The notes under the pieces were generated by a model. It was not told the origin of the DNA and searched no databases. It worked only from the letters and a program-made list of their open reading frames with translations. Shown here one piece after another: positions 1,871-2,075 of a DNA stretch of 51,824 nucleotides (positions are counted from its first letter, which is position 1; every line of letters begins with the position of its first letter). The DNA comes from Pseudomonadota bacterium (GTDB lineage: Bacteria; Pseudomonadota; Gammaproteobacteria; Burkholderiales; Burkholderiaceae_C), in assembly GCA_018240325.1 (NCBI GenBank), contig JAFEFZ010000124.1, positions 1 through 51,824 on the forward strand, in the 5' to 3' direction. Made by a program: the position numbers and the translations under genes.

Positions 1871-1901
1871 GGGCCGGGCTGCGCCCAGCCCGGCCCCTTT
1901 T
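1871..1901 (+). terminator. Rho-independent terminator after the CsgG-like gene
   Basis: A perfect 10-bp stem (GGGCCGGGCT 1871-1880 with AGCCCGGCCC 1887-1896) closes a 6-base loop and is followed by CTTTT. It starts 8 bases after the stop codon of the CsgG-like gene and should insulate clpB from upstream transcription. Confidence 0.85.
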
Positions 1902-2014: not shown

Positions 2015-2042
2015 CTTGAAAACCCCGGCGGCTGCCCCAGAT
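2015..2042 (+). promoter_or_regulatory. Sigma-32 (RpoH) heat-shock promoter of clpB
   Basis: CTTGAAA at 2015-2021 is followed after 13 bases by CCCCAGAT at 2035-2042. This is a near-perfect match to the proteobacterial RpoH consensus CTTGAAA-N13/14-CCCCATnT, differing only at one position of the -10 box. Transcription would be expected to start near 2048-2050, only about 18 bases before the clpB ATG. The position directly in front of a heat-shock chaperone gene strengthens the call. Confidence 0.85.
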
Positions 2043-2066
2043 CCGCATGAGTCGGAGGAACCACTC

Positions 2067-2075
<9 letters not shown>
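2040..2075 (+). promoter_or_regulatory. 13-bp perfect inverted repeat around the clpB ribosome site and start codon
   Basis: Bases 2040-2052 (GATCCGCATGAGT) are the exact reverse complement of 2063-2075 (ACTCATGCGGATC). The 10-base centre, CGGAGGAACC, contains the Shine-Dalgarno GGAGGA (2054-2059), and the right arm contains the ATG (2067-2069). In a transcript starting upstream, the hairpin would bury the start codon in its stem. A transcript starting at the predicted heat-shock start (about 2049) would lack most of the left arm. The left arm also overlaps the -10 box, so the repeat could instead be a DNA operator. Confidence 0.85.

Follow-up and report, generated by a model that had tools for sequence, protein, structure and literature searches.

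For gene e of phage T4, the available part of PMC3014915 describes long transcripts that are translated about 100-fold less, along with late-promoter transcripts that are devoid of the 5' part of the structure. In Synechocystis, the Shine-Dalgarno sequence of hsp17 is located in a bulged, meltable stem with an apparent Tm of 46 °C (PMC4477652, in the portion available). At the level of DNA, template switching that perfects quasipalindromes has been described in E. coli, and template switching has been suggested to give rise to stems in RNA (PMC7202029 and PMC8794818, respectively, each in the sections accessible).

The locus considered here is the 5' region of a clpB gene located in a stretch of 51,824 nucleotides (the window), the relevant features of which are collected in Table 1. 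Pfam domains Clp_N, AAA, AAA_2, AAA_lid_9 and ClpB_D2-small establish the identity of the gene; the list of open reading frames opens its frame earlier, with a GTG at 1941, but the alignments of relatives begin at the ATG at 2067. Promoters recognized by sigma-32 (RpoH) are composed of CTTGAAA, a spacer of near 13 bases and a CCCCATNT-like -10 element. Reading of the sequence confirms what the preliminary description had stated about the architecture, that is, (i) a near-consensus RpoH promoter just 5' of the gene, with coordinates and elements as given, (ii) a perfect inverted repeat with 13-bp arms that are 100% complementary, and (iii) a ribosome site in the 10-base loop, with the ATG in the right arm. 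The -10 element CCCCAGAT is one base off the CCCCATNT-like consensus. The coding portion of the right arm is a variant form of the start sequence usually seen in clpB. When the genome harboring the window was scanned for CTTGAA-N12-15-CCCCANNT, two matches were obtained, the clpB site and one on contig C204. We consider it likely that the dyad is confined to one lineage and plays no conserved part in regulation, and that it arose from chance point mutations or a template switch and has been tolerated.

Table 1. Features in and around the 5' region of clpB (positions in the window).
Feature	Position	Strand	Details
Probable intrinsic terminator of upstream gene	1871..1896	+	11-bp GC stem-loop, then CTTTTCC
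Sigma-32 (RpoH)-like promoter	2015..2042	+	CTTGAAA-N13-CCCCAGAT: CTTGAAA at 2015-2021, 13-base spacer, CCCCAGAT at 2035-2042
Dyad left arm	2040..2052	+	GATCCGCATGAGT; shares its three leading bases with the 3' end of the -10 element
Dyad loop, 10 bases	2053..2062	+	contains Shine-Dalgarno GGAGG, 2054-2058
Dyad right arm	2063..2075	+	ACTCATGCGGATC; includes clpB ATG, 2067-2069, and codons 2-3
clpB coding sequence, 867 aa	2067..4670	+	open frame and Pfam

The comparison with other clpB 5' regions carries most weight for this assessment, being more telling than the neat position of the dyad. A search of the genus covered 81 genomes, including the one harboring the window, and all of them (81/81) were matched; some matches lie further into clpB or belong to a different Clp gene, and the number of clpB starts is hence smaller, so that the genus contributes 72 distinct clpB 5' regions, that of the window included. 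A wider sample comprised the best 80 of 586 matches from a scan of GTDB genomes, from which two loci of Rubrivivax MAGs were dropped as duplicates of genus regions. Loci with identical 5' regions or with fewer than 60 bases upstream were excluded, leaving 150 distinct regions. Two of the genomes (G013, contigs C158 and C120; G043, contigs C109 and C115) each exhibit two differing strong matches to the ClpB N-terminus, indicating either paralogy or contamination.

Within this set, which includes the best 80 of 586 GTDB matches, the dyad is present in a single region of 150, namely that of the window, and the perfect repeats that touch the ATG reach a length of 13 bp in the window, followed by 8, 7, 6 and 6 bp in four regions and by at most 5 bp in the other 145. 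A sigma-32-like promoter is found with a loose pattern in 107 of these 150 regions, and several of the 30 misses listed show CTTGAA followed by a variant -10 element. The preliminary description had called for an alignment of related upstream regions: at the position of the dyad, the 149 others (best 80 of 586 GTDB matches included) pair on average at 5.85 of 13 positions, with a maximum of 9, versus 5.70 (s.d. 1.01) for shuffled leaders, that is, pairing equals the shuffled null and no pairing pressure is thus evident at this position in the set compared. The nearest relative found among the 81 genus genomes (G067; 91% nucleotide identity at the clpB start) is without the dyad, yet retains CTTGAA and CCCAAGAT. 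Absent from every relative compared, the dyad is most likely a recent mutational accident and not a switch.

Start sites of sigma-32 promoters are located some 5-8 bases after the -10 element. From this geometry we infer that the clpB mRNA very probably starts at about 2047-2050, that is, within the left arm. The gene would then be driven by an ordinary sigma-32-type promoter, and its main transcript, missing most of the left arm, would be unable to form the long hairpin. The preliminary description had gone further and envisaged a promoter-coupled translation switch, in which readthrough mRNA would fold and hide the AUG, whereas heat-shock mRNA, starting inside the hairpin, would be translated. 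For such a switch, T4 gene e provides a working precedent (PMC3014915, in the available part). The stem is located exactly on the junction between promoter and start, with the Shine-Dalgarno sequence in the loop, as one would picture it for a switch. Ensemble predictions for 37 °C leave the AUG 0% unpaired when the transcript begins at 2000, 2030, 2040 or 2045, 43% unpaired for 2046, and 71-81% unpaired for 2047-2051, so that the expected start lies immediately beyond the point at which the AUG changes from locked to free. In contrast, the Shine-Dalgarno sequence is not predicted to gain in accessibility, with 0.43-0.62 unpaired in the short forms (2047-2051) versus 0.63 in the long ones. A helix of the T4 gene e type, which hides the start when the transcript is long and is missing when it is short, is thus predicted for the AUG but not for the ribosome site, and the proposal that heat-shock transcripts are free stands for the former only.

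The predicted folding energies single out the window as well. The 36-nt dyad RNA is predicted to fold with -24.0 kcal/mol (z -6.3 versus shuffles), and among the 150 regions, which include the best 80 of 586 GTDB matches, the leader of the window is lowest in folding energy both for -27..+9 (-24.0; next -14.9; median -5.0) and for -18..+36 (-12.9; next -12.5; median -6.4). Shuffled versions of the segment 2049-2100 fold as well as the segment itself (z 0.6); judging from the rank in the -18..+36 energy, the short clpB leader is predicted to be not wholly structure-free.

A switch of this kind presupposes readthrough, the source of which is doubtful because of the terminator-like stem upstream of clpB (predicted fold -26.0 kcal/mol) and because no sigma-70-like consensus sites were found by a scan of 1800-2150. 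A stricter terminator scan, in which at least 5 T were required, did not list this stem. The preliminary description had named absence of the dyad from close relatives as an observation that would refute the switch, and this is the outcome of the comparison. Considering also that the closest relative found and all 149 other clpB regions (best 80 of 586 GTDB matches included) are without the dyad, we regard the promoter-coupled switch as unlikely. The co-directional gene upstream (993-1862) encodes a CsgG-family protein (E 1.1e-8) and ends 152 bases before the -35 element.

How unusual such a repeat is by chance can be estimated from a census of perfect repeats (arms of 13 bp or more, loops of 3-20 bases) in 511,850 bases of the same genome (40 stretches and the window; the draft assembly has 321 contigs and 4.18 Mb). 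Five were found, while resampling with Markov models of order 1, 3 and 5 (ten sequences for each order) gave expected means of 2.6, 3.4 and 3.2, respectively; since three earlier order-1 resamplings had given a mean of 0.33, this expectation is uncertain by a few-fold. Long perfect repeats are thus about as common as the GC-rich composition predicts. The same stretches contain 104 perfect repeats whose arms measure 10 bp or more. Three of them touch a candidate start preceded by a Shine-Dalgarno sequence (1002 candidate starts, both strands, over-called), and it counts against an accident that the clpB dyad is the sole one of these 104 with arms longer than 11 bp at such a start. Extrapolation to 4.18 Mb would lead one to expect some tens of repeats of this kind, about one of them covering a gene start, and the chance of finding such a start within one 52-kb window would then be roughly 1%, for a feature singled out in retrospect. 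Hence, the dyad is striking at clpB, yet it is within what scanning many genes would meet, and as it stands caution is advisable: where GC content is high, even a perfect dyad in a suggestive position can be an accident of one genome. On different contigs of the same genome, a 14-bp perfect repeat (GGCCCRAAGCGGCC, loop 3) is present in two near-identical versions (L178, 18883-18913; L201, 119-149), which perhaps belong to a small repeat family.

As an alternative to the switch, the preliminary description had considered a temperature-sensitive hairpin on a longer clpB transcript, that is, an RNA thermometer. With hsp17 the locus does have in common that a heat-shock gene carries its start codon partly in a stem (PMC4477652, in the portion available), but the perfect stem is predicted to stay closed, having an energy of -26.8 kcal/mol at 30 °C and still -20.6 kcal/mol at 45 °C, and the predicted accessibility of the AUG in long forms is still 0.0 at 50 °C. 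A search of 1850-2250 against Rfam returned six matches up to E 10, each of them below its gathering score; one of these, over the dyad, is to a microRNA model (14.9 bits versus 76). A thermometer of the ROSE, FourU or hsp17 type would be expected to open in the physiological range and to match a described family; according to the predicted energies and the Rfam search, the dyad does neither, and since the stem is not predicted to open with heat, this explanation can hardly be credited.

A DNA operator, at which a repressor would block the -10 region, was the second alternative raised in the preliminary description. The overlap of a perfect dyad with the -10 element is what one would look for in this case, but a second copy of the whole dyad is not present in the genome when up to three mismatches are allowed (a search for single half-sites covered the window), and the dyad is missing in the 149 other clpB 5' regions, including those from the best 80 of 586 GTDB matches, which makes an operator very improbable. 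The consensus of the CIRCE operator is TTAGCACTC-N9-GAGTGCTAA. A CIRCE operator at clpB was considered and rejected: no site is present there, while CIRCE-like sites occur at two other places of the genome, on contigs C307 (one mismatch) and C312 (three mismatches). The dyad, having arms of the form GAGT-N10-ACTC, is indeed distinct from CIRCE, as had been proposed.

One may further ask if the dyad is a fold-back chimera resulting from assembly or amplification, given that the genome is a draft and that no second genome examined carries the dyad. An open reading frame, ribosome site and promoter that are all intact, along with flanks aligning with the relative on both sides, speak against such an artefact, to which we assign a very slight probability indeed. 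A published report of the clpB dyad was not met in our literature searches, which were not aimed at proving absence.

The favored explanation, a lineage-specific mutational accident, is consistent with the alignment with G067. Both sequences share AGAT before and AGTCG after the middle of the left arm, with the arm ends GAT and AGT unchanged, whereas the intervening 8 bases differ by four substitutions and one deletion; together these changes yield the complement of the right arm, i.e., of the clpB start, and the right arm differs from G067 as well. Such a clustered change resembles template switching at a quasipalindrome, by which the clpB start would have been copied, as its reverse complement, over the middle of the left arm, while accumulated point changes are also admissible on the basis of the sequences; since both arms differ from G067, the order of the changes and the template switch are unproven. 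That the dyad has been tolerated is then understandable, because the heat-shock mRNA probably begins inside the left arm, and the dyad may well be neutral. Should readthrough transcripts arise, they would be expected to be translated less because of the hairpin, in the manner of T4 gene e. Selection for reduced readthrough translation is a possible but unsupported reading for a dyad from one draft genome, and a function confined to the lineage is, as judged from that one genome, possible.

Beyond the dyad itself, complementarity between promoter and start may be somewhat enriched in clpB leaders. A perfect repeat of at least 7 bp is found in 21 of 150 leaders versus about 10 expected from mononucleotide shuffles of the upstream 60 bases, and for four cut points 14, 17, 15 and 12 of 149 were observed versus means of 6.65, 8.25, 7.2 and 5.3 after swapping of leader halves between genomes, both sets including the best 80 of 586 GTDB matches. 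With GC-matched swaps, z values of 3.2 and 3.7 show that the excess is kept in the 78 leaders from outside the genus, which stem from the best 80 of 586 GTDB matches, but z values of 1.4 and 1.0 show that it is not kept in the 71 leaders of the genus; control regions subjected to the same test range from z -2.4 to 2.9. Because related sequences are not independent, this weak excess is to be taken as a lead and not as a result. It is conceivable that a single recent template switch provided the chaperone gene with a gate in the style of T4 gene e in one Rubrivivax-related species, so that translation would be restricted to mRNA from the heat-shock promoter, the weaker complementarities in some clpB leaders of other Burkholderiales then being parallel attempts, but we deem this combination distinctly unlikely.

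Several individual leaders are worth recording. The sigma-32 promoter elements CCTT, CCCC and CAT resemble anti-Shine-Dalgarno and anti-start sequences (149 other leaders, including the best 80 of 586 GTDB matches). In Candidatus Paraburkholderia calva and Burkholderia peredens (L116 and L125), a -10-like CTCATTTT pairs perfectly over 8 bases with AAAATGAG at the start codon, and in L111 and L122 CTCAT and ATGAG are still present, whereas the complete 8-bp pairing is not. In clpB leaders of Rhodoferax and Hydrogenophaga (L113 and L119), an upstream GCACTCC pairs with GGAGTGC, which contains the Shine-Dalgarno sequence.

When compared with the described systems, the clpB dyad thus combines familiar elements in different ways. 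With the CIRCE/HrcA operator it shares an inverted repeat at a heat-shock gene, but sequence and polarity of the arms differ. The stem is perfect and stable, with the Shine-Dalgarno sequence in the loop, unlike that of hsp17 as portrayed in the accessible text of PMC4477652. Like the repeats ascribed to quasipalindromes and template switching, it may result from a clustered change that turned a near-repeat into a perfect inverted repeat (PMC7202029 and PMC8794818, in the sections consulted), but its ancestral sequence is deduced solely from a 91%-identical relative. With T4 gene e and I-TevI it would have in common that the start region of long transcripts lies in a helix, of which transcripts from the gene-adjacent promoter lose the 5' strand (PMC3014915 and PMC2988022, as far as these accounts extend). 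For T4 gene e, however, both transcript classes and the effect on translation have been documented, and leaders of a similar kind have been predicted for closely related phages, according to the part of the account available; the clpB dyad is known from the sequence of one genome, and the structure is kept in 0 of 149 other regions (best 80 of 586 GTDB matches included). The imagined switch is then no new principle, as T4 gene e and I-TevI already operate in this manner, judging from the available parts of PMC3014915 and PMC2988022. If functional, the dyad would represent a phage timing device moved into a cellular stress gene and built by one mutation.
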